Assembly (NCBI GenBank): GCA_017994055.1
Contig: JAGOLL010000018.1
Span: 1-36,855 of the forward strand
Length of the DNA stretch: 36,855 nt
From: Methanothrix sp.
GTDB lineage: Archaea; Halobacteriota; Methanosarcinia; Methanotrichales; Methanotrichaceae
Direction: 5' to 3'
Below the pieces are notes generated by a model. It was not told where the DNA came from. It made no database searches and saw only the letters and a list, made by a program, of their open reading frames with translations. Numbering within the stretch: the first letter of the stretch is position 1; every line of letters starts with the position of its first letter. The position numbers were made by a program, and so were the translations under genes. Below, piece after piece: positions 2,454 to 29,247 of the stretch.

Positions 2454-5400
2454 AGCTGCAATATCCATTGCTGTTCATATTGATCACATCCTGCATCGGA
2501 TCAGCCCTGGCCCAGGATCAACTCCTGGAGAGGGGAGTCAAGGGCGAGATGGAGGATGTGGTCCTGATAGGAGCTGACGACTGGCATGCTGCCATCGCCG
2601 CAACACCTCTTGCCATATGGTCCGAGGACAATGAGACCATCCATCTTCCGCTTTTGATCCTTCCCCAAGAGGTTCAGGCGGGGGAGAGGACCGGATGGGT
2701 GGATGGATCCGATCTGCAGAGATACGGAGCGCAGGCCATATTGAGTGCATTCAAGAGCGCCAATATCAGCGCCATTACCATCCACGGCACCGGGGAGACG
2801 GTCAAGGATCTGGCCGAGTCCGCCCATAAGGGCGGTCTCAAGGTTTATGTCACCGCGGGCCTGGAGGTTTCGCGCTCTCCCGGGAAGGCTGCCCTGCAGG
2901 GATTATCGGATCTGCCTGAGGCCATCGGTGCCATGCTAACTGAGGCCGGCCTTGATCTTCCCGTCAGCAACGACTCTGGAGTGGACAGAAGCCTGCTTCA
3001 GGTTGCCAATCCAGATATAGGCGGAAACGCCACCCATTACTGTCCTGTCAACCAGGGGGCAAAGGACAATCTCTACGATTACATTGAGACTCTCATCGAT
3101 GACTACAAAGTCGATGGCGTGGTCCTCTATAATTTCGGATTTCAAGATGAAAACTATTGTTACTGCAATTTCTGCAAAGAGAAGTTCTATCAGGATACCG
3201 GCATCGACCTGAGCAAGGTTTATGCCAGCTCCTACAACCGCGAAAGATGGAATCAGTGGAAGCAGGACCAGGTCATGGAGATCGTGGACTATGCTCGTAA
3301 TATAACCACCGATCTCGGGCCGGTAAAACTGGGAGCAGCCCTGGACAATCCCTTCGACCGGGCTCAGGGATACAACTTTGCCCGGATATCCCAGGCCACC
3401 GACTTCGTGATGATATCACCCCTCTCGGCTCAGGAGGTGGGAGAGGTCTGCCTTCTCAGCGAAAAGCCGGTTTATGTCCGCCTGAGCGATGATTATCTGG
3501 CCTATATTCTCTCCACCCAGAATGTGGAGGGGGCGGTAAGATATATGGAGGAGCTTCGGAGCTTCGGAGCATCCGGACTGGCCCTGGAGTATAATGTCGT
3601 CCACACCCCGGTCTGGGCTGAGCTGGAGCCGCCCTCTCCGGCAGCCAACTGGCTGCTGAAACAGATCGGCGGAGAGAGTCTGGCTATAGGCAATGTCTCC
3701 TGGAGATATGACCAAAAGCTAGAGGCCAATAGCAGTTATGATCTGGCGGAGAAGATCAGCCGCCGCTGGAAGAGCGCACCGGGTGCGGTGATTGTAGGCG
3801 AGAACTACAGCGCTGCTCTCACCGCTGCGCCTATTGCCTCATATCTCAACTGGCCCCTTCTCTATGTGGGCGAGCAGATGCCCCTAGAGACCGAGGCGGC
3901 TCTGCAGCGTCTGGATATCAGAAAAGCGGTGCTAGCAGGCCCCATCTCCGCTCAGGTCAAGGGGAACTTGAGCAGGATGAATATCACCTGGCAGGATGCA
4001 TCTGAGGGAATGCTTATCGAGCAGATGAGGCTGAGGGGCGAGAGCCCGGATATGGTGGTTTATGCCAACTCCCGCGACCTCTCTCTCCTTCTGCCCCAGT
4101 CCCGCCCATCGGTGAAGAGGACATTTGTGGAGGATCTGCTGGTGAGGATGGAATTGAGCCCCAGCCAGGTTCCGGCAGAGGAGATAAGCCAGATCGTCAG
4201 GCTCAATATCACACTCAGCAATACCGGAGAAGAGACAATGCATGGCGTGCGGCTGCTGGATGTCTTCCCCATGGGCCGCCTCATAAAATGGCCCCGGGCG
4301 GAGATGGGGCAGGTAAATGTCACCGATCCCTATACCGGACAGCCCTCTGATGCCATGAATTCCTTCCTCAATGGCTCCATGCTTCGCTGGAGCATAAACC
4401 GCCTTGAGCCAGGTAATTCATCGAGCCTGAATGTGGATGTAGAGCTGCTCTATCCCATGGACAGCGGATGGGAGGAGGGGCTGGACAGGGGGGCCACTGT
4501 TGCCTATGAGGGATACTCCTACAATCATACCTTGAAGAATCTGGACGATCCTCCGGCAATAAATCTGACCTATCCCGTCTGGATCTACTCCGGCAGGACC
4601 AATATCTCCTGGAGCCTGGACCGGGAGGCAGCCTACACCGCCATAAACCTATACAGCCCAGACCGGGGCAGCGGCAGGCTGGAGATCACTGATATGGAGC
4701 GGGATAAGCTCTATGACATCCAGGTGCAGATGCTCACCCCCGGAAGGTGGACATTCAATATCGAGGCAGGAGATGGGGCGGTCCGCAGGACCAAGAACTA
4801 TACCGTAGAGGTCTTGTCCAACTCCCCGGCACTGAATATTACTGCCTTCAGCCATACCAAGGTGCCGCGGCTCTCCCTGCTAGCGCCAGCTGCAGCCGCT
4901 GCCCGCCGGGCAGTTTTATTGGATGCCGCCCGCGATCCTCAGCAGATCGATCCATCCGCCGAGGAGGAGGCGCTCAATCAGAAGGTCGAGGATCTGGAGA
5001 TCTCTCCCCGCTATCTGATGGTGGTGGGAGACCCCGGCTCGCTGCCATTGATATCCACCGGCCTTACCCAGAAGGTTGACAGCGTTATGGAGTACGAGAT
5101 CTTCCGAGATTATCAGCTCATGGACGAAGGTAACTACAGCAAGGTGGCGGTGGGAAGGGTCATGGCCCTCTCGGTTTATGATGCATCCCAGCTTCTGGCC
5201 AGAACCCTGGCCTACCATCAGCTGAACGGCTCCTGGAAGGGAAATGCTCTGGTTATATCCTCGCCCCCACTCTCCTTCCCCCAGTCGCCCATAGCCATGA
5301 GTATCAGGGATTACCTCAGAGATGCAGGACTGGAGGTCAGAGACCTGCGTTACGAGGAGGCCACCTACCAGCAGGCCGTCTCACAGATGAACAACGGCCA

Positions 5401-7853: not shown

Positions 7854-9167
7854 TTAGGGCTTAATGGCCTTTCCGATCAGCCCCATGTAACGCTCCTCCA
7901 GCTCAGCCATATCATCTCCGACAGTCTCGATGTAAAGCCTGATTATGGGCTCGGTGTTGCTGGGACGGATCAACGCGCTGTGGCCTTCGGTGGTTATCTT
8001 CAGCCCGTCCAGAGTGTCAGGCTCCATTCTGGCGAGAGCATCTTTTAGCCGCAGCATCACTGTAGTGGTATCCCCCTCGATTCTAATGCTCTTCTGCAGG
8101 TAGGGATAGTCGGGGATCTCGTCCGCGAGGACTGAGAGCTTCTCGCCCTGGGATATGATCTCGGCCAAGACCAGGCTCATGGCGAAGGGATCGTCGGAGT
8201 ATTGGAACTCGGGCAGGAAGAAGTGAGCGCTGCGCTCAACACCTAAAACAGCTCCTGAGTTTTTAACCCGGTTAGCAATAAAGACATCCCCCACGCGCTC
8301 CCTTTGGACATTATATCCTTTTGGTTTGAGTTCTCTTTCTAGGATTATAGAACAGTCGAAGCCAGAAATAACCAAGTCTCCGGGCCGGTATCTCTTTTTA
8401 GCTATGATTATGGCAATTTTTTCTGGAGGAACAACTCGACCGAGATCATCGACAATCAGACCTCGATCTGCATCTGGATCGAAGCCAACTCCAAAATCAG
8501 CTTTATTTTTTACAACTATCTTTGAAGCTTCTTGAAGAGATTTTTCGGTCGGGCTTGGACCCCTGCCTGGGAATCGTCCATCCATGTTTTCATTAACCTT
8601 AATAATCTCAAGCTCTGATTTTTCGTAGATTGGCGCCATCGAGCAAGCTGAGCCGTTTCCAAAATCCAGAACTACTCTTAGCTTGCGTTGGATATTAACT
8701 TTTTTTGATATGTAATCACTATAGCGATCCAAAGCAACGGATGGATCTTTATCTATTATACATCCATTTCCTCTTGAAAAATTGCCTTCCAGATAATACT
8801 CCATGATCTTCGTTTCTTTGTAAAGCATTCCGTAGCCATCACCAGTTCTAAACCTTATACCATTGTATTTAGCGGAATTGTGAGAGGCTGAAATATACGC
8901 GGCTGCATCTAATTTATCTTCCCGAGTTATATAGCTTAAAACGGAAATAGGAATTATTCCATAACTCTGGATATTGCAGCCAGCAGAAATAACGCCTTTA
9001 ATGAAAGCTGCTTGAAGATGTGGACCGCTAATGCGAGTATCTCTGCCTAGAGATACATCGCCCCGTTTGAAGCATGATCCGAATGCTGATCCTACCTTTT
9101 CAACTAGCTCTTCAGTTACCTCTGTACCGTAGATGCCTCTGACGTCATAAGCTCTGAATGCACTCAA
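7854..9167 (-). CDS. Phosphohexomutase (phosphomannomutase/phosphoglucomutase family), compositionally mosaic
   Basis: It interconverts sugar 1- and 6-phosphates for nucleotide-sugar and surface-glycan synthesis. All four alpha-D-phosphohexomutase signatures are present: the phosphoserine loop SASHN (S95), the metal loop DPDADR (residues 230-235), a sugar-binding segment around GVERSAHFF, and the phosphate-binding RPSNTEP near residue 410. The length of 437 residues is normal. The start is a TTG preceded by AAAGGAGG at ten bases. It overlaps the upstream gene's TGA (TTGA), so translation is coupled to the 726-aa protein. The first roughly 305 codons are AT-rich like that upstream gene, whereas the last 130 are GC-rich like the glycosyltransferase side. 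This suggests recombination inside the gene. Mannose versus glucosamine specificity cannot be read from the sequence. Confidence 0.9.
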   Translation of the reverse strand: MSAFRAYDVRGIYGTEVTEELVEKVGSAFGSCFKRGDVSLGRDTRISGPHLQAAFIKGVISAGCNIQSYGIIPISVLSYITREDKLDAAAYISASHNSAKYNGIRFRTGDGYGMLYKETKIMEYYLEGNFSRGNGCIIDKDPSVALDRYSDYISKKVNIQRKLRVVLDFGNGSACSMAPIYEKSELEIIKVNENMDGRFPGRGPSPTEKSLQEASKIVVKNKADFGVGFDPDADRGLIVDDLGRVVPPEKIAIIIAKKRYRPGDLVISGFDCSIILERELKPKGYNVQRERVGDVFIANRVKNSGAVLGVERSAHFFLPEFQYSDDPFAMSLVLAEIISQGEKLSVLADEIPDYPYLQKSIRIEGDTTTVMLRLKDALARMEPDTLDGLKITTEGHSALIRPSNTEPIIRLYIETVGDDMAELEERYMGLIGKAIKP

Positions 9168-11344
9168 TGAATTGCTTCCTCCTTTAAAGTTTTAGGCTTA
9201 ATTTCCTTTGGCCCATAACCTTTTAAGAAATCCCAGCTTTCAATTTCTCGAGTATCTGCAAAAGTCATTCTAGCGGGCTGAGGTGTACCAATAGTTGGCT
9301 GAGGTGTACCAATATGGACTTTTATAATGGCTTCAACGCCAATGCCGGTTGTGCTTTCTAATGCGAAATTTATTTCTTTTAGCATTTCTTCAGATTTCAA
9401 TCTTTTAGGTTCAGATGCATGAAGCCCTCCTCCAGTCAAAATTTCAGCTAATGCTGAAGTCGCAGGACCGCTTACTCCGTTCAATATTACCACCCAGTTC
9501 TTGCTACCACTATTTGGAGGATATTTCGCAATTAATAAGTGGCCAAGAAGATCAAAGCCATTCTTAGATATTAATCCTTGCCTAAAATATTTTTCATATA
9601 TAGGCTTCAAACCAGTAGTTCTTGAATGTGGTTTAAATCCTCTATCTGCTTTCTGTCCTTTCCGCAAAGATTCGCTTTTATAGAACAATCGCGGAAATAC
9701 TTTCGCATAATCCTTCTCCTTGCCATTGGAATTATCCGCTTCATATCTTTTTACTGCTATGTATCCATCGAATTCCGCATCAGGGCATTTCGTTAAAGGT
9801 TTGCATGATGGTTCTAAATTATATATCTTGTAAAGAAGATATTCTGTTAGTGCATTTACATCAGGAGAAGCTATCACAATTGCATTAGAATTTTCCAAAT
9901 GATTATCGAGCTCTCCGCAAAAATCCTTGATAAACTCGTCATCTTTAGGCTTATTTTTTTGTTTTTCATATGATTCTTCAGGAGAATAAAGAGGAGCAAC
10001 TAATTTAATTGTGGTTGCTTCTCTGACAGTCGGCAGATAAGAAAATAGATCTGAGACGACACGTACGTCCCAATCACCTACAACTTCTCTTGTATGCGTG
10101 GGCGAATGAACCGCACCAACAAAAACTTTTAGAGGCGTTTCGGCTGGAAATCTCTCCCAGAAGGTACGTCTATGCAAATCGGATAAATCGCGCTCCATTA
10201 GGTGCTCGAGTATTTCGCGGATTTGATTTTTAAAATTAATTAGATCTGATCGATCACACTCAGCGTACCATAAAGCTCTGATGTCGAAGGCTAATTTATT
10301 TTTTCTATTTTCATCCAATTTATTTCTGCCAATTTGGTTAATTGGTATTGCATTTAAACCACGCGCGTGACAATAGCCAAGCCAGAAATATGCTACGGGA
10401 TCATTATTGGTTATATCTATTAGCGTACAAAACGATTCCTCTAATTTCCCTATAATTTTATCAGTTGTAACCTCCGTATCATCAATTATTGATTCAGCCT
10501 TTGTGAATTCCTCCCAATCACTACCCATGGTTTTTATAAATTGCTCCCATGGTTTTAATTCAGATGCTGCGTTGCCCTCTTCAACATGATTCTTTTTGCC
10601 AGCAAGCTCATCTTTTTTGAGAATCTCGTTCATTATCTCAGCCATAGCCTTCGCTACAGCACCGATAATTAATTTTTTAAATTCAATATTGAGATCTAAA
10701 TTATCCTCTTCCTTGTTCATTTTATTTTCATCTCTGAAGCTTAAAATTTGAATTTTAAAATTTAATTTTTTATTGCTGGGGGGTCGTGGAAAATAAGTTA
10801 TATAATCCTTAAAATATTCCTCGCCATTGCTAAAGGAAAGAGGCTTAACACCTTCGTAATAAAAAATCTTGCTGCTATTAAAAAAACTGAAGGCGCCTTT
10901 GCAGGAGGGAAGACTAAGAGTTGATTTTACGTTATTAGTATTATATGAATCATTTTTATTTTTCATTAGAACAACTGGGCGATTGATACCGCATGCAAGG
11001 CCAAATTCATAAAAAACATTGGGATTAGGCAGACTAATCTCTACCAGGACCAAATCGGATTCTTGTATTTTTCGACATATTTTTTCGCAGATTATATAGC
11101 CAATATCCCTTACCTCATCCGCAATTTGGATGTTTTTAATTTTGCATCCTTCAAGCAGGAATGGTTTTAGGCTCCATTGATAAAACGCCTCAAAATTCGG
11201 TCTCATTGGCATAATAGCAAACGCGTTATCTTTTTCTGAATCCTGAATTTGCGAAGAAAAGATGCATTGCTTGCCGGTCATAAAACAGCGTCTCATAACT
11301 GGTTTTGCAGGATCATTCATAACAATTGCCATATTCATCCTCAT
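9164..11344 (-). CDS. Conflict-type protein with N-terminal nucleoside 2-deoxyribosyltransferase-like domain and further alpha/beta domains
   Basis: This encodes a 726-residue soluble protein in a low-GC island. Residues about 20-140 carry a nucleoside 2-deoxyribosyltransferase-like (TIR/SLOG-related) pattern: FAIMPMRPNFEAFY, then ESDLVLVEISLPNPNVFYEFGLA followed in the chain by RPVVLM. A CxxxxxxC pair (CFMTGKQC) precedes it. The middle is helical and lysine-rich. Residues about 430-560 form a second alpha/beta unit (DWDVRVVSDL, then NAIVIASPDVNALTEYLL). Residues about 640-670 hold a third conserved-looking unit (WVVILNGVSGPATSALAEIL). Near the C-terminus a heptad, IGTPQP plus one residue, is repeated twice. 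Several ATGs lie at the start; the one at 11332 has AGGA five bases upstream and may be the true start. It is coupled to the phosphohexomutase downstream. The function is unknown; nucleotide sensing or cleavage in defence is an inference. Confidence 0.72.
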   Translation of the reverse strand: MRMNMAIVMNDPAKPVMRRCFMTGKQCIFSSQIQDSEKDNAFAIMPMRPNFEAFYQWSLKPFLLEGCKIKNIQIADEVRDIGYIICEKICRKIQESDLVLVEISLPNPNVFYEFGLACGINRPVVLMKNKNDSYNTNNVKSTLSLPSCKGAFSFFNSSKIFYYEGVKPLSFSNGEEYFKDYITYFPRPPSNKKLNFKIQILSFRDENKMNKEEDNLDLNIEFKKLIIGAVAKAMAEIMNEILKKDELAGKKNHVEEGNAASELKPWEQFIKTMGSDWEEFTKAESIIDDTEVTTDKIIGKLEESFCTLIDITNNDPVAYFWLGYCHARGLNAIPINQIGRNKLDENRKNKLAFDIRALWYAECDRSDLINFKNQIREILEHLMERDLSDLHRRTFWERFPAETPLKVFVGAVHSPTHTREVVGDWDVRVVSDLFSYLPTVREATTIKLVAPLYSPEESYEKQKNKPKDDEFIKDFCGELDNHLENSNAIVIASPDVNALTEYLLYKIYNLEPSCKPLTKCPDAEFDGYIAVKRYEADNSNGKEKDYAKVFPRLFYKSESLRKGQKADRGFKPHSRTTGLKPIYEKYFRQGLISKNGFDLLGHLLIAKYPPNSGSKNWVVILNGVSGPATSALAEILTGGGLHASEPKRLKSEEMLKEINFALESTTGIGVEAIIKVHIGTPQPTIGTPQPARMTFADTREIESWDFLKGYGPKEIKPKTLKEEAIH
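9276..9317 (-). repeat. 21-bp tandem duplication inside the 726-aa gene
   Basis: Two copies of a 21-bp unit lie at 9276-9296 and 9297-9317, with 18 bases identical in each. They encode two IGTPQP heptads near the C-terminus. The duplication keeps the frame, so the protein gains one heptad. Confidence 0.85.
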
Positions 11345-11472
11345 AATGCCATCGGATAATCATGTTTTGTTTTACTATCGCTTAAAGAGTTTTTGGTCTT
11401 ATTTGCAGCGTTGTGCCGTCCTAAAATATCTCGCGCTTGATCTAATTTGATACAATCTAATTTATTCGTATA

Positions 11473-11595
11473 TTATATAGTTAACTTTAACTGGCACGCT
11501 CTCGCTTCAATTTCCTCTAATGTGACTCCCTCGGACTTATGCTTCTGCAAATATCCAAATTGGGAATCAACGTAGGCAGCCTCGCTCTGATCCAT
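11473..11595 (-). CDS. Small 40-residue protein of unknown function
   Basis: This short frame was found by reading the minus strand. The ATG at 11595 is preceded by AAAGGAGA at five to six bases, a very good archaeal ribosome binding site, and the frame runs 40 codons to a TAA. The product starts MDQSEAAYVDSQFGYLQKH and ends LEEIEARACQLKLTI. It is charged and helical, with no signal peptide or zinc motif. It lies 72 bases downstream of the acylphosphatase-like gene on the same strand and at the edge of the low-GC island. It could be the remnant of a longer gene. I do not recognise it, but the ribosome binding site and balanced codons argue for translation. Confidence 0.5.
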   Translation of the reverse strand: MDQSEAAYVDSQFGYLQKHKSEGVTLEEIEARACQLKLTI

Positions 11596-11667: not shown

Positions 11668-12162
11668 TCAGAGCATCCCCAGCCGGTCTTTTATGGCCCT
11701 GATGTCCGTCTGCATCTGCCGGAAATTGCTGGCATATCCGGGCTGAATATCCTCTCGAATGCCTCGCACCTCCTCTAAAACCAATGGGATGGTATCGGTA
11801 TTCCTCCGGACTTCCTTGATATCGTCCCTCATCTCCAGAAGAAGCGGGATGGCCTTGTTCATCTGAGAGAATGTGCCGATAGAAGCAAACTGCCAGGCGG
11901 GCATGATCTCGCCATTATAGTCCTCCTCTAAAACCCTCTCCACGCTGGCCAGAGGCGGCTTGGTCGAGTTGGCCATCTTCCGGAACCTATTGACCCGAGT
12001 CTCATCGCCTTCGATAAGGGCTACAACCGACTGCTGATCATTTAATTCATCGTTGAAGACCTCAAAGCCTCTCAGAGCCATGCTCAGGGCAAGCTCCGAG
12101 AGATAGGGCCTGTATCCCACATCATGCACCTTTGGGCCGCAGATGGTGATCTTGAGCTTCAT
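11668..12162 (-). CDS. Acylphosphatase-like domain fused to a C-terminal coiled coil
   Basis: The 164-residue product has an acylphosphatase fold in its first roughly 90 residues. The ITICGPKVHDVGYRPYL segment supplies the phosphate-binding loop with the catalytic Arg (R18), EVFN supplies the catalytic Asn (N37), and an EGDETRVNRF segment follows. The family hydrolyses carboxyl-phosphate mixed anhydrides such as acetyl phosphate. The last roughly 70 residues (EMRDDIKEVRRNTDTI, then REDIQPGYASNFRQMQ) look like a coiled coil, absent from ordinary 90-100-residue acylphosphatases and possibly used for oligomerisation. The open frame continues upstream to 12585, but that extension is Pro/Ser/Cys-rich, overlaps a dispersed repeat and looks non-coding, so I place the start at the ATG at 12162. 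No clear ribosome binding site is seen. Confidence 0.75.
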   Translation of the reverse strand: MKLKITICGPKVHDVGYRPYLSELALSMALRGFEVFNDELNDQQSVVALIEGDETRVNRFRKMANSTKPPLASVERVLEEDYNGEIMPAWQFASIGTFSQMNKAIPLLLEMRDDIKEVRRNTDTIPLVLEEVRGIREDIQPGYASNFRQMQTDIRAIKDRLGML

Positions 12163-12657
12163 CCAGAGGTGATATGTGCCGGCTGGAAAGAAAAAGATTT
12201 GGGTATGGTAGCGAGGGCAATTATTGAGCCCGCTCGCCTTGCGGCTGCTTTCGCAGGACTGGGGATCCGGGGACATGCCTCGAAAGCTCGCCGCATGCAG
12301 CTCTGTCATGCACGAATTGCCGGGACATCCGCACGCCAGGGGCGCCGCCGCCCGAGGGCCGGAGCCGGGATCGCCCTGCCGTTGCCATTGAAAGACGGGA
12401 CCAGGACCTTGGCCTGAAATCCGTGGGGATGGATTGGGATAGGCTGCTGCAAAAGTTGGCTTGGATTGAAGAAGGCATAGACAAGGTGCGGAGCAGGCCC
12501 ATCGACCACACGCAAAATGCGAGCGAAGATGGCAGGGATGCCCGCAGGCCGGAAGGACTGGTCTCGCCTGGGCAGCTGCGCTCACGGTCGGACTGGGATC
12601 AAGGGCGGCAGTTCGGAGGCCTGCTCGCCAGGAGCTTCATGGACGGCAGAAATGCTG
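12163..12657. other. Gene-free GC-rich stretch containing repeat copy A
   Basis: All six frames here give low-complexity translations rich in Pro, Ser, Arg and Gly, and long frames exist only because stops are rare in GC-rich sequence. The middle (12344-12470) is a copy of the 127-bp dispersed repeat. I see no other gene, RNA or terminator in it. Confidence 0.6.
12344..12470 (+). repeat. Dispersed 127-bp repeat, copy A
   Basis: This begins with the GC-rich core GCCGCCGCCCGAGGGCCGGA, continues through a TGCCATTG block and a GATTGGGATAGG block, and ends at a GGATTGAA block. The same blocks occur in the same order and almost the same spacing at 15760-15887. The core alone recurs at 13105-13132. 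No open frame is convincingly conserved between copies, so I treat it as a non-coding element of unknown function. Confidence 0.75.
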
Positions 12658-13215: not shown

Positions 13216-15591
13216 TTGTTCACGAAAGAGAGTCGAGTCAGGATTGCAGCGGTAATAATGACTGCGATAGTCTTGCTGCTTGTGGCATTAGTCCTGATTC
13301 TGGATCGATTTCCGGACTTGCAGCAAAGCAGATGGGCGGTAGCCCTGGGCATTTTTGCTTCCATCACCTCACCAATTGCGGTTTATGAATTCCTCATTAA
13401 ACGGTTCATCAATCGGGGCGGGATAAACGGCAAATCGGGTCAGACAGAGATCATAAACGGACAGGCTCTGGAGATCAAAGGCAATCAGCAGGGCACAGTG
13501 ACGCAGCACGACCAGCGCGGCCAGATTGTCCAGGGCCCGCAGACAAACATTGCCGGAAGCGTTCAGGGACCGGTGCTTTCCGGTCAGATCGATGGTCCTG
13601 TGGCAGCGGGAGCAGGGGATGCAGTAGACCTTCGTGGCTCCATAGGGCCGATCTACAAGTCCAACATCATCCAGCGGGAGAAGCTGCCGGTTCCAAGAGC
13701 ACCGCCGCCTCCACAGGATTTCATCGGCAGAGGAGAAGAGCTGGAAGTAATCCTGAAGTCCTTTGATCGAGGTGCAACCATCACCGGGCTGCGGGGAACT
13801 GGCGGCATCGGCAAGACCGCCCTGGCTTTGGTAATGGCGGACCGGCTCAAGAGCCGCTTTCCAGACGGCCAGATCTTTCTCAAGCTGGAGGGCACGAGCC
13901 CCAATCCCTTGAAGCCTGCCGAAGCCATGGCCCAGGTGATTCGCGCCTTTCGCGGCTCTGAAGAGCGCCTGCCTGAAGACCAGAACGAGCTGCAAGGGCT
14001 CTACAACTCGGTGCTGGAAGGAAAGCGCATCCTTCTGCTGCTTGATAATGCCGCTGATGATAAGCAGGTCATCCCACTCCTACCACCCAAGGGCTGTGCC
14101 GCCCTGGTCACTTCAAGACAGAATTTCACCCTGCCGGGAATGCCCAAGCCGTTTTCTCTGGATACCATGAAGCCTGAAGAGGCCAGGGACCTGCTGCTAA
14201 AGATCAACCCACGCATCGGCGATAGGGCTGGAGAGCTGGCCAGGCTCTGTGGCCACCTGCCTCTGGCGCTGCGGGCAGCGGCCAGCTTTTTGGCAGTCAA
14301 GATCGACCTAAAGCCATCTGCCTACCTGGAGGAGCTCCGCTCCGAACGCACCCGCCTGGAGAAGATAGGCAGGGAGGGCGTGGATCTGGACCTGGAGGCG
14401 TGCTTTGATCTGAGCTACAGCCGCTTGCCGGCAGAGACTGCAAGGGTCTTCCGCATGCTTTCGGTCTTCCCTTCAGACTTCGATGCTGCTTCCGAGGAGG
14501 TGATCTGCCAGGACAAAGGGCACCAGCATCTGAGCGAGCTGCTGCGCTGGAGCCTGGTCGAGTTCCCGAAGCAAGAGGGCGAGGGAAGGTATCATCTGCA
14601 TGATTTGGTGAGGTTGTTTGCGCTCTCTCTTCAAGATGGGGATAAGGACCTGAACCTGCGTCATGCTACATATTATCAAGAACTCTTGCGGAAGGCCAAC
14701 GATCTCTTGCTGCAAGGAAAAGATTCCACGCACAAGGGCTTGCAGCTCTTCGATCTGGAATGGACGAATATCCAGAGGGGACAAAATTGGACTGCGACTA
14801 ATGCTGATGAAGACATTGAAGTCGCCCGCATATGCAGCAACTTCGCCTGGACAGGAAGCATTCTGAATTTGAGGCTTCATCCGCAGGAGAATGTGAAATG
14901 GCTTCTAGCGGCCCTATCCGCTGCCCGCCGACTAGAGAGCAAAGAAGCTGAGGGTGCCCACCTGGGCAACTTGGGCCTGGCCTACGCCAACCTGGGCGAG
15001 ACCCGCAAGGCCATCGAGCTCCACGAGCAGCGCCTGATCATAGCCCGCGAGATCGGCGACAGGAGAGGCGAAGGAAACGCTCTGGGCAACCTGGGCCTGG
15101 CCTACGCCGCCCTGGGCGAGCCCCGCAAGGCCATCAAGTACCATGAGCAGGCCCTGGCCATCGACCGAGAGATCGGCGACAGGAGGGGCGAAGGGAAAGA
15201 CCTGGGCAACCTGGGCATCGCCTACAAGAACCTGGGCGAGCCCCGCAAGGCCATCAAGTACCATGAGCAGGCCCTAGCCATAACTCGCGAGATTGGAGAC
15301 AAAATGGCAGAAGGGGCAATTTTGGGCAACCTGGGCATCGCCTACAGAAACCTGGGCGAGCCCCGCAAGGCCATCGAGTTCTACGAGCAACGCCTGATCA
15401 TCGCCCGCGAGATCGGAGACCGGAGGGGCGAAGGCAGTGCTCTATGGAATATGAGCCTGGCGCTGGACAAGCTCGACAATAGAGGAAGAGCAATCGATTG
15501 TGCCAGAGCAGCCCTCAAGATTCTTGAGGAAATCGAAAATCCGCGTGCCGAGGAAGTAAAAAGACAGCTGCGGGAATGGGAAAGCAGCTAG
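13216..15591 (+). CDS. Membrane-anchored STAND NTPase (NB-ARC-like) with C-terminal TPR array
   Basis: The 791-residue product has two N-terminal membrane helices (residues about 9-30 and 41-62). A Gly/Gln/Ile-rich repetitive linker follows (75-150), with units such as GQIVQGPQTNIAGSVQGP. The NB-ARC-type NTPase starts at FIGRGEEL (169), with Walker A GTGGIGKTA (K200), a Walker B-like ILLLLDNAAD, and a later LCGHLPLALRAAASFL motif of the STAND type. A winged-helix-like stretch ending in YHLHDLVRLFA comes next. The C-terminus has about five 40-residue TPRs. STAND proteins usually sense a ligand through the repeats, oligomerise on ATP and trigger an effector; here the membrane helices may be the effector. 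The start is a TTG with GGTGA too close for normal spacing, so it is uncertain. The gene is flanked by hicAB and a hicB remnant. Confidence 0.85.
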   Translation: MFTKESRVRIAAVIMTAIVLLLVALVLILDRFPDLQQSRWAVALGIFASITSPIAVYEFLIKRFINRGGINGKSGQTEIINGQALEIKGNQQGTVTQHDQRGQIVQGPQTNIAGSVQGPVLSGQIDGPVAAGAGDAVDLRGSIGPIYKSNIIQREKLPVPRAPPPPQDFIGRGEELEVILKSFDRGATITGLRGTGGIGKTALALVMADRLKSRFPDGQIFLKLEGTSPNPLKPAEAMAQVIRAFRGSEERLPEDQNELQGLYNSVLEGKRILLLLDNAADDKQVIPLLPPKGCAALVTSRQNFTLPGMPKPFSLDTMKPEEARDLLLKINPRIGDRAGELARLCGHLPLALRAAASFLAVKIDLKPSAYLEELRSERTRLEKIGREGVDLDLEACFDLSYSRLPAETARVFRMLSVFPSDFDAASEEVICQDKGHQHLSELLRWSLVEFPKQEGEGRYHLHDLVRLFALSLQDGDKDLNLRHATYYQELLRKANDLLLQGKDSTHKGLQLFDLEWTNIQRGQNWTATNADEDIEVARICSNFAWTGSILNLRLHPQENVKWLLAALSAARRLESKEAEGAHLGNLGLAYANLGETRKAIELHEQRLIIAREIGDRRGEGNALGNLGLAYAALGEPRKAIKYHEQALAIDREIGDRRGEGKDLGNLGIAYKNLGEPRKAIKYHEQALAITREIGDKMAEGAILGNLGIAYRNLGEPRKAIEFYEQRLIIAREIGDRRGEGSALWNMSLALDKLDNRGRAIDCARAALKILEEIENPRAEEVKRQLREWESS
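14941..15540 (+). repeat. Five 120-bp tandem repeats encoding TPR units
   Basis: The period is exactly 120 bp, with units beginning at 14941, 15061, 15181, 15301 and 15421. The first four are highly similar in bases as well as residues (LGNLGLAY, then NLGEPRKAI, then REIGDRRGEG). The fifth is diverged. The high base identity suggests recent duplication or gene conversion. Confidence 0.9.
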
Positions 15592-15726: not shown

Positions 15727-16127
15727 CCTTTATATTCAGTCTTGGGAGAACAAGCCTATGCCGCCGCCCGAGGGCCGGAGCCAGGCTCGTCCTGCCGCTG
15801 CCATTGCCGGTCGGGGAGATGAGGCAGGCTGGGATTCGGGGGGGCTGAATTGGGATAGGAAGCGATAAGGTCCGGCTCCGGATTGAATAGCCGCTGCCAG
15901 GGCGCGCTCGGGTATTGATATGAGTTAATCCGACTGGAGATGGAAGGATCACATGCAAGTAGGTGGAAGGAGGATTATCGGTGGCGGCGAAATCTTATGG
16001 AGATTTGCCGGGGGCTAATTGTAGCTTGTTTGCTTGCCGATAAAGGAAAGAAGAAGATACACAGATTGCATCTTGATAAGGCTGCTTACTATAAAGTCGA
16101 CAAGGTTACAGTTGTTCATAACGTTTT
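15727..16127. other. Gene-poor stretch with repeat copy C
   Basis: This 400-bp gap holds the 127-bp repeat at 15760-15887 and then AT-richer sequence. A 70-codon plus-strand frame from 15940 has no ribosome binding site and an unconvincing sequence. I see no RNA gene. Confidence 0.5.
15760..15887 (+). repeat. Dispersed 127-bp repeat, copy C
   Basis: The core GCCGCCGCCCGAGGGCCGGA is identical to copy A. The TGCCATTG, ATTGGGATAGG and GGATTGAA blocks then follow in the same order over the same length. Copy C lies about 35 bases upstream of the hicB remnant, much as copy B lies upstream of hicA. Confidence 0.75.
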
Positions 16128-16943
16128 TCATATACTCTGTGGATTTTCATAAATCCATATCTTTCGGCGTATCTCAATCGCCGTTGGATCTTCCATTGGC
16201 AGATCTTTAATATGATATTTTAATACTTCTTTGACCAGTGGCCAAGGATATTGATACGCATCAAGAACTTCATTTATTTCAGTATCTATATCCATAAAAC
16301 TAATTATTTCTTTTTGAATTTCGGAAAATTCCTTAATTGATTTATCTATTTTATGCTTGTCTCTTAGATCTTTCAATCTTTCCTCCAGGTTTAATCTTTC
16401 ATGAAGTTTTTTATATAAAGTATTCGCATCCTTCGGATCAAACATATCCAAAGTCCAGCTAAAATATTCTTCTTTAAGTGGAACTGGGTATCTACCCTTC
16501 CATTTAGTATATTCCGACAGTATTTTTAAAATTCCATCATATTCTCTGAATTCTGTTATTTCATTTTCATTCAATAGATCATTAGTTTCATGCTTATTGA
16601 TTTTGTCTAATCCTTTTTCAGTTAAATTTCCTGGAGTTCTTATCATTATAATAGCTTTGGCTAAATTTTCAATGGAATATCCTAGCAATAAATAATAAAC
16701 TTCCTTTAAATGTAAATCTTCAAACTCCTGCCCCAATTCTCCATCTATTTCATAATACGGTTTCGGAAGGGAACAGAATCTTTCGTATGGAACCTTATAC
16801 ACCTCTAATATAATATCTGCTGCTCTTTTTAGAAGTCTGGCTTTTCCTTTCCAACTATATGGCCCAATGCTAAGGGCGCCATTTTTAAAATCGTCTTCCA
16901 TCATCTTTCTTATATCATCATCTTTTAATTCGGGAAAAATCAT
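16128..16943 (-). CDS. Low-GC gene for a HEPN-like helical protein of unknown function
   Basis: The 271-residue product is almost all helical and clearly more AT-rich than its neighbours. A central segment (YYLLLGYSIENLAKAIIM, then a KHETNDLL region and ILSEYTKWKGRYPVPL) resembles HEPN-type proteins found in defence loci, where a helical bundle presents an RNase or nucleotidylation site. I cannot see a canonical R-X4-6-H motif, so the HEPN call is tentative. The start is the ATG at 16943, with GGAGG seven bases upstream; a TTG directly before it is less well spaced. No partner toxin or antitoxin gene adjoins it. It is separated from adenine deaminase by about 95 bases, and its composition suggests acquisition by transfer. 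Confidence 0.6.
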   Translation of the reverse strand: MIFPELKDDDIRKMMEDDFKNGALSIGPYSWKGKARLLKRAADIILEVYKVPYERFCSLPKPYYEIDGELGQEFEDLHLKEVYYLLLGYSIENLAKAIIMIRTPGNLTEKGLDKINKHETNDLLNENEITEFREYDGILKILSEYTKWKGRYPVPLKEEYFSWTLDMFDPKDANTLYKKLHERLNLEERLKDLRDKHKIDKSIKEFSEIQKEIISFMDIDTEINEVLDAYQYPWPLVKEVLKYHIKDLPMEDPTAIEIRRKIWIYENPQSI

Positions 16944-17038
16944 CAATTTTCCTCCAAATTACTTCAATGTCCATGCAATTAAGTCTTATTCAATGGAGAT
17001 TAATATTTTATTGACACACGATCAATCATCTCAAAAGA

Positions 17039-27804: not shown

Positions 27805-29247
27805 TTACTCCTGATTGCCAAAGCGCTTGACCAGATTTTTGCTATCACGTGATATGTCCCATGCACCCTGTTTATTATCGCGGAGGTCATTCTTCTCAAT
27901 AATCCCTGCGCCTTTATCATGAATATAGACTGCATTATAGGCGTTTTTATTTATGCGGTTACCCCGAACGGTTGGATTGCCTGCCTTTTTGATCTCGATA
28001 CCAGTTAGAGTATTTCCAAATATGTCGTTATCTTCGATAAGTCCCTGGCCGTTCTCGTAAATAAATATCCCAGATGCCTTACCGTCGTGGATCCTATTTC
28101 TTCGGACGGTTGGGTTCCCAGCCTCTTTGATAGAAATGCCCGCATTCGCATTTCCGAATATCTCGTTATCTTCTATTAATCCCTGACCGTTCTCATAAAC
28201 AAAGATCCCGGCTGACTCGCCATCGTGGATCTTGTTGCCTCTTAGCTTTGGAAATGCTTTACCGTGTATCGCTACACATGACAAGGAATTACTGGTTATA
28301 TCGCATCCTTCTATCTCCAGCAATCCCTGCTGGATATCAACACCATAAAAATTCCCTCCACCGATTTGCTGGAGAACAAGGTTTTCGACTCTTCCTCTGG
28401 CGGCCTTAAACAGTATAGCATCTTTTCCTTCCGCCCTGATCACAACATCCCCTAAATTGCCGTCTCCCACTATACATAGTGGCTTATCTAGAATGAGCCC
28501 TTCATCGTAGATCCCGGAATGAACCAGAATTCGCGATCCGGGATCTGCTTCTTTGATGGCCTGGGAAATGGTGGTATAGTCTCCCCGATGCCATTGATCG
28601 ACCACTACGGTGGGCATCTCAGGTTTCGGCCTTTCTTCCACTTTATTTTCGCTTGCATCAATGTAAGGCCTGGTCTCATGATGGACTGGCGCTGGAGTCT
28701 CAACCGCAGGTTCATGATCTCTGGAAGACGGCGGCATAGAGTCCAGTGCATTACGTATATGAGCTGCCAGTTTAGACAGTTCCCGCCGGACAGCCCCGGT
28801 GCCCAAGTCCTCAAACCTCAGCCCTCTCCAGTCTGCATACTGGCGGGAGGCGATGGTCTGTGCCAGTTTATCCTGATTCTTCTTGATTTTATCGTTAAGG
28901 AGAGGTGTATCAATAAGATATATTGGGAGGATCAGGTCGTCTCTTTCTAGCTCCCTCTCTCTTTCCAGGAATAGGTTCAACTCATTGCGGCAATTTTGGC
29001 TCTTGAAAAATCCCGGAGAGATAATGGGGATGAGAAAGGTGGTGCCATCAATGGATTCTTCGATCCTCTTTTTCCATGAGTCCCCCCATTTTATGTCCTT
29101 TCGGTCCATAAAGATGGGGAACTCTTCTCCCAGGTGCAGGCATACTTCGCCGCTTAAGCATTCGCAAAACTCGGTAAGATAGCCCCTGTTGAGCCTGTCG
29201 TCAATATGAGCATAGCTCATGAATGCCATTGGTTTGCGATCAGCCAT
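27805..29247 (-). CDS. TIR-domain protein fused to a right-handed parallel beta-helix
   Basis: The 480-residue product has a TIR domain at residues about 5-165: AFMSYAHIDD, then PIFMDRKDIKWGDSWKKRIEE (a BB-loop-like region), FLIPIISPGFFKSQNCRNEL and ILPIYLI. E89 in CRNEL sits where TIR NADases have their catalytic Glu. A Pro/Glu-rich linker (170-215) follows. Residues about 215-480 form a NosD/CASH-type beta-helix: YTTISQAIKEADPGSRILVHSG, then 46-residue units with ENGQGLIEDN and AGNPTVR. There is no signal peptide, so the helix is probably cytoplasmic and may sense or scaffold. The TATA box at 29288-29297 gives a leader of about 20 bases. It lies 127 bases downstream of the SLATT gene on the same strand. 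NAD cleavage in defence is an inference. Confidence 0.9.
   Translation of the reverse strand: MADRKPMAFMSYAHIDDRLNRGYLTEFCECLSGEVCLHLGEEFPIFMDRKDIKWGDSWKKRIEESIDGTTFLIPIISPGFFKSQNCRNELNLFLERERELERDDLILPIYLIDTPLLNDKIKKNQDKLAQTIASRQYADWRGLRFEDLGTGAVRRELSKLAAHIRNALDSMPPSSRDHEPAVETPAPVHHETRPYIDASENKVEERPKPEMPTVVVDQWHRGDYTTISQAIKEADPGSRILVHSGIYDEGLILDKPLCIVGDGNLGDVVIRAEGKDAILFKAARGRVENLVLQQIGGGNFYGVDIQQGLLEIEGCDITSNSLSCVAIHGKAFPKLRGNKIHDGESAGIFVYENGQGLIEDNEIFGNANAGISIKEAGNPTVRRNRIHDGKASGIFIYENGQGLIEDNDIFGNTLTGIEIKKAGNPTVRGNRINKNAYNAVYIHDKGAGIIEKNDLRDNKQGAWDISRDSKNLVKRFGNQE
27963..28238 (-). repeat. Two 138-bp tandem repeats encoding paired beta-helix coils
   Basis: The units are 27963-28100 and 28101-28238. 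Each encodes 46 residues, that is two 23-residue coils, with the shared pattern IHDG, GIF, YENGQGLIEDN, IFGN and AGNPTVR. Base identity is high enough to suggest duplication within the gene. Confidence 0.8.

Follow-up and report, generated by a model that had tools for sequence, protein, structure and literature searches.

The locus analysed here raises the question of what kind of protein is encoded by an AT-rich gene directly adjoining glmM in an archaeon of the genus Methanothrix. The window, i.e. the whole stretch of 36,855 nucleotides under study (contig JAGOLL010000018.1 of assembly GCA_017994055.1), carries this gene, referred to as the main gene, at positions 9164-11344 of the minus strand, on which all features of the gene given below are located. 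A preliminary description made from the sequence alone had placed an open reading frame (ORF) of 726 amino acids (aa) at exactly this position and had read it as a multi-domain protein with a deoxyribosyltransferase-like N-terminus that may serve as a sensor-effector protein. With a probability of roughly 0.6, the main gene encodes a horizontally mobile conflict protein of the TIR-DrHyd-SLOG class, probably antiviral, in which an N-terminal effector domain (D1) is followed by a dead domain (D2) and a C-terminal sensor domain (D3-D4).

The ORF begins with an ATG start codon. Conservation of its residues among homologs of three phyla shows that it does not represent a chance reading frame. Its GC content is 0.367, and the GC content at third codon positions (GC3) is 0.303, compared to 0.64-0.77 in most other window genes measured, in agreement with the earlier remark that the base composition is unlike that of the surroundings. 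The main gene has a foreign base composition and appears to be horizontally acquired. The supposed low-GC island is indeed AT-rich in the main gene but is not confined to it, as the AT-rich stretch also takes in the initial ~800 bases of the adjoining glmM, with a GC content of 0.37-0.46 per 200 bases. Low GC3 values are also displayed by two other genes of the window, located at 16128-16946 (272 aa, GC3 0.25) and 27805-29247 (GC3 0.50).

Family searches, covering 1,676 genomes in all, revealed a family of four members. The closest relative, found in genome G517 (L022/L030), which belongs to another archaeal class of the same phylum, is a full-length homolog of 769 aa with 47% identity in the C-terminal part and 43-44% overall. 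A homolog of 760 aa with 33% identity was retrieved from Blastocatellia bacterium AA13 (L032) by a two-sequence profile searched against GTDB genome contigs. In Methanobrevibacter curvatus, an N-terminal fragment, retrieved by the same profile, is located on one contig and the remainder (689 aa, 32% identity) on another; the two pieces lie at contig ends (L033 4534-4839 and L042 2457-8466, respectively) and the N-terminal ORF is truncated, so that this homolog may be interrupted or split by an assembly break. One full copy is present in the window's own genome. The C-terminal part occurs in 1 of 238 genomes of the window's class, where the only other match is of D2 type, and the family in 2 of 394 genomes of the phylum, the second being G517. 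The remaining counts are similarly low (1/199 for the class of G517, 1/152 for the phylum of M. curvatus, and 1/162 and 1/396 for the class and phylum of the Blastocatellia member). Relatives of the full protein were not found in three scans of viral contigs, and phages and plasmids yielded similarity of the D1/D2 type only. This rare and patchy occurrence over three phyla fits horizontal transfer, and the family appears to have spread sporadically by this route. A candidate relative of the C-terminus in G485 (L023) was rejected as a chance match to an acyl-CoA-synthetase-like protein; six further matches (L024-L029) are weak, with E-values of 0.006-0.05.

D1 comprises residues 36-165 (10850-11239). 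All four homologs match PF05014 below threshold (best E 0.0026), and D1 matches the PADLOC 'TIR' effector PDLC00733 with an E-value of 1.5e-7 and phrog_3634 with 2e-20. Searched against PDB sequences, the family profile retrieves DNPH1/Rcl chains at E-values of 0.007-0.01; among proteins of solved structure, DNPH1/Rcl and the CMP/hydroxymethyl-CMP hydrolases are closest in sequence. Judged by these matches, D1 is related to nucleoside deoxyribosyltransferases (NDTs) and TIR-like proteins, as had been proposed for the N-terminal domain from the string VLVEISLPNPNVFYEFG, which was located at residues 99-115. The family alignment outlines an active-site-type motif, ISLPNPNVFYEFGLA (residues 103-117, 10994-11038), in which Asn107, Asn109 and Glu113 are invariant among the four homologs and Asn109 and Glu113 constitute a catalytic-type Asn-x3-Glu arrangement, in keeping with the conserved Asn and Glu that the DrHyd/NDT class has in the loop/helix behind strand 3. 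A glutamate at the position of Glu113 is invariant across ten diverse DrHyd-like domains and is aligned with the glutamate of the 'GYELG' motif of DNPH1/Rcl, which we take to be the catalytic one. Situated ahead of D1 is the motif RRCFMTGKQCI (residues 19-29, 11258-11290), with a C-x6-C pattern; it is near-identical throughout the four homologs, the detached N-terminal piece of M. curvatus (L033, ORF 4534-4839) among them. A C-x6-C is also located ahead of the DrHyd domain of another protein (L043). The linker between D1 and D2 (approximately residues 170-290) is poorly conserved.

The second domain, D2 (residues 290-402, 10139-10477), had been overlooked in the preliminary description and emerged from profile and pairwise matches: phrog_3634 aligns to the protein in two stretches, corresponding to D1 and D2. 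D2 shares 40% identity over 67 aa with a DrHyd-type protein of G208 (E 4e-6), and scores 43.5 bits against that protein, compared with at most 25.8 bits reached by 1000 shuffles. Comparison by hhalign with a profile of ten DrHyd sequences, which includes the G208 domain and D1, gave a probability of 96% and an E-value of 3e-9. Within the motif PVAYFWLGYCHARG (residues 316-329, 10358-10399), a tryptophan occupies the position of the catalytic glutamate, a replacement found in all four homologs (AYFWLGYCHARG), and the domain retains the invariant runs WLGYCHAR and LAFDIR-x-LW. Judged from this alignment, D2 is a pseudo-enzyme domain that is conserved as such, which would imply a role in binding or assembly. 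A D2-like core in which the glutamate is retained is found in a DrHyd protein of the same class (L020, 254-2334), the gene of which adjoins one SIR2/DUF4917 gene and one that is HsdS-like.

The C-terminal part (D3-D4, residues 404-706, 9227-10135) contains the two further strings quoted earlier, NAIVIASPDVN (residues 487-497) and LNGVSGPATSALAE (residues 621-634), which had been ascribed to two separate alpha/beta units. An AlphaFold2 model of this region, built from 4 sequences, reached only moderate confidence, with a predicted TM-score (pTM) of 0.68 and a mean predicted local distance difference test score (pLDDT) of 62; an earlier model from two sequences was discarded at a pLDDT of 30. 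The order of secondary structure elements is beta-alpha-beta-alpha-alpha-beta-alpha in the first half and alpha-beta-beta-alpha-alpha-beta in the second, and an insert at residues ~518-593 is of low confidence, disordered or unmodelled. According to this model, the two presumed units are probably halves of one alpha/beta domain. Three segments are conserved: REVVGDWD, which follows predicted strand 1, SPDVN-x3-E, the DVN-x3-E part of which follows predicted strand 3, and NGVSGPAT, the longest invariant run within D3-D4. The first two are invariant or nearly so, their placement being that of a moderate-confidence model with no significant fold match. NGVSGPAT is part of NGVSGPATSALAE (residues 622-634), located at 9443-9481, and a further feature inside the domain is located at 9842-9868.

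D3-D4 has no match in Pfam, NCBIfam, PADLOC, PHROGs or PDB sequences, and its profile finds its own family only. A Foldseek search with the model against the PDB and viral models returned nothing below an E-value of 0.001; weak matches to an asparaginase, to caspase/CHAT proteins and to a phage nucleoside deoxyribosyltransferase were discarded because of TM-scores below 0.3. A reading as a plain DrHyd, SLOG or TIR repeat is not supported by profile comparison: hhalign probabilities stayed under 1% against sequences of the DrHyd, SLOG-like and TIR kinds. A supposed recurrence of the SP-x-VN and NG-x-SGPAT pair in the C-termini of helix-turn-helix or STAND proteins was not confirmed by the profile search. 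The suggestion that D3-D4 constitutes either a sensor domain of a new kind or a third, highly diverged Rossmannoid domain of the TIR-DrHyd-SLOG-like type, with REVVGDWD and DVN-x3-E as its loops after strands 1 and 3, is therefore put forward tentatively, and we regard it as doubtful; if it is correct, active, dead and highly diverged nucleotide-processing modules would be combined in one protein, which would be an immune protein complete in itself, spread horizontally among archaea and bacteria and without a described relative. The combination as a whole had not been recognised in the preliminary description, and no known family in Pfam, NCBIfam, PADLOC or PHROGs corresponds to the architecture over its full length.

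A survey of gene neighbourhoods for an association with defence, as had been advised, revealed a conflict-gene island around one relative. The homolog of G517 is flanked by a TIR protein, a TrkA-RyR protein and two DUF4062-NACHT proteins with TPR and WD40 repeats, respectively. Within ~40 kb, AIPR with DUF4420, DUF4062, Schlafen/AlbA, MoxR/AAA-RyR and another WD40 protein are encoded, in addition to PP2C, FtsZ-like, SIS, vWA and MoxR genes. The archaeal island as a whole (L030, L100, L101) extends over ~57 kb; conflict genes are densely packed in it, and two of the encoded proteins contain RyR domains. In M. curvatus, a 558-aa protein located beyond glmM, two genes from the homolog, reads like a SLOG domain with transmembrane helices, although Pfam returned no match for it. 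The main gene of the window has an NB-ARC-TPR STAND protein encoded ~2 kb upstream. A partner common to every homolog is lacking, and this favours a unit made up of a single gene.

Based on these features, we infer a sensor-effector function, as had been surmised earlier. D2 and the C-terminal region would respond to a cue of infection by releasing D1, which probably cleaves NAD+ or some other nucleotide at an N-glycosidic bond; the outcome could be either suicide by the effector, i.e. abortive infection, or a small-molecule signal. D2, with its Glu-to-Trp replacement, is likely catalytically dead and would act as a ligand-binding or dimerisation module, and D3-D4 with its conserved loops REVVGDWD, SPDVN-x3-E and NGVSGPAT would be the sensor of the trigger. 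Control of D1 by a sensor would be comparable to the DUF4062 TIR-like NADases (PMC13174449) or the NDT-like effector of Retron-Eco1 (PMC12405507). Several observations weigh against the proposal. D1 stays below the PF05014 gathering cut-off, with 18.3 versus 28.8 bits, and the family is supported by four sequences only. The homologs do not share a conserved partner gene, and the window copy lies outside an obvious defence island, with genus-conserved housekeeping genes on one side. Moreover, relatives of the C-terminal domain have not been assigned, so that its designation as a sensor is an argument from architecture only.

Instead of acting as an effector itself, D1 could generate a signal, with a messenger derived from a nucleotide (e.g. 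a derivative of ADP-ribose) opening separate effectors such as RyR- or SLOG-containing membrane proteins. TIR/DrHyd enzymes are able to make cyclic ADP-ribose variants (PMC9503650); a TrkA-RyR protein with an adjacent TIR gene is encoded near the G517 homolog, and a SLOG-like membrane protein near the M. curvatus homolog. However, no such partner adjoins the main gene of the window, each homolog has different neighbours, and any of the many other systems in the G517 island could own the RyR and TIR genes, which renders this variant rather unlikely.

A role outside of defence, as a nucleotide-metabolism or house-cleaning enzyme (a DNPH1-like N-hydrolase or a deoxyribosyltransferase) with regulatory domains, could be argued from the nearest solved structures named above and from the stop codon of the main gene, which overlaps the start of glmM and suggests coupling to a housekeeping gene. 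This is improbable, since a full-length match to any metabolic enzyme was found neither in Pfam and NCBIfam nor in the PDB, the distribution is sporadic and the composition AT-rich and foreign, relatives within the genus carry glmM without the main gene, and the G517 homolog has conflict neighbours. The single copy in one genome of its class, the atypical composition and the split M. curvatus homolog with its truncated N-terminal ORF would also be compatible with a decaying, non-functional acquisition. Given that the ORF of the main gene is unbroken across its 726 codons with all family-invariant motifs kept, and that the homologs of G517 and Blastocatellia are intact too, we consider decay very improbable.

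The relation to glmM (7854-9167), located downstream of the main gene with a 4-nucleotide overlap, was analysed separately. Almost all genomes of the genus possess glmM (63-68% identity) in a conserved gene order but without the main gene, and it was therefore rejected as a partner of the system. glmM also neighbours the homolog in M. curvatus, one gene away, but the shared adjacency is most likely a coincidence. Compared with the orthologs of the genus, the N-terminal half of GlmM displays 58-59% identity and the C-terminal half 75-76%, whereas the identity between two relatives amounts to 79-81% for either half. In combination with the AT-rich 5' part, this contrast suggests a recombination junction inside glmM; the gene looks like a mosaic, and the junction is possibly that of the acquired segment. 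The slot upstream of glmM varies within the genus: reading of the sequences places an FtsJ-type methyltransferase gene there in three genomes (G013, G004 and G014), and a radical-SAM gene together with type I restriction-modification genes in a fourth (G001).

Upstream of the main gene, an AT-rich stretch read from the sequence (11465-11485) contains the TATA-box-like element CTATATAATATA and is a possible archaeal promoter. The 305-aa ORF at 11668-12585 overlaps in its 5' part a repeated GC-rich sequence with a second copy at 15760-15859, and is probably in reality a shorter acylphosphatase-domain protein. The NB-ARC-TPR STAND protein (13216-15591) has, by eye, a predicted N-terminal membrane segment and contains recent 120-base TPR duplications that are 64-81% identical. 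The 272-aa gene at 16128-16946 is very AT-rich (GC 0.315, GC3 0.25) and has no confident family match; HEPN-like by eye, it is possibly a second acquired conflict gene. DrHyd domains were also noted in other contexts. In the window's own genome, contig C63 encodes a fusion of a DrHyd/TIR-like and a Macro domain (L003, 661-1860) beside a NUDIX gene, an ADP-ribose-themed pair. A 576-aa protein of the same genus (L008, 237-1967) combines an N-terminus resembling CHAT/caspase proteins by eye with a C-terminal DrHyd domain, and in a further protein (L044, 1414-2838) a C-terminal DrHyd domain follows a part that reads like a terpene-cyclase/prenyltransferase repeat.

Immunity by cleavage of NAD+ or other nucleotides is well known in bacteria and, to our knowledge, sparsely described in methanogenic archaea. 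With four members in three phyla, the family would provide a compact test case for sensor control of a nucleotide-cleaving effector within one polypeptide, and D3-D4 is a domain missing from current libraries.

Comparison with known systems places the protein near several of them. Its likeness to the DrHyd/NDT superfamily (PF05014, DNPH1/Rcl and DrHyd domains of conflict proteins) includes the weak PF05014 match of all four homologs; however, the enzymes of this superfamily are stand-alone proteins of ~150 aa, whereas the 726-aa protein carries a dead second copy and an unplaced alpha/beta domain. Short Staphylococcus phage proteins of PHROG 3634 (e.g. SA13 gp16, L018 2953-3603) possess the same DrHyd/TIR-like core and resemble both D1 and D2, but are single-domain proteins of 216 aa lacking D2 and D3-D4. 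Retron-Eco1 (Ec86) likewise employs an NDT-like domain as defence effector and protects by NAD+ hydrolysis (PMC12405507), yet its architecture differs, and the 726-aa protein seems, as far as could be observed, to function as a unit of one gene; no reverse transcriptase was detected when its neighbours were scanned with Pfam, and msr/msd RNA was not searched for. The Swarozyc/DUF4062 TIR-like NADases, which are antiphage proteins that deplete NAD+ on sensing the phage portal, share the combination of an N-terminal TIR/NDT-related and an auxiliary domain in one protein as well as the patchy distribution (PMC13174449), and DUF4062-NACHT genes flank the G517 homolog. The 726-aa protein differs from them by its pseudo-domain and its C-terminus, and PF13271 (DUF4062) was not found in any of the four homologs. 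With Thoeris (ThsB TIR / ThsA SIR2-SLOG), it likely has the chemistry of the TIR-DrHyd-SLOG class in common, but neither a Pfam TIR match in the protein nor a SIR2/SLOG gene among the neighbours tested was detected. Literature searches, from which subscription literature was mostly outside coverage, surfaced no description of the architecture. While both the class and the principle have been described before, this does not appear to hold for the architecture of three parts, for the DrHyd copy conserved in its dead state or for the C-terminal domain.

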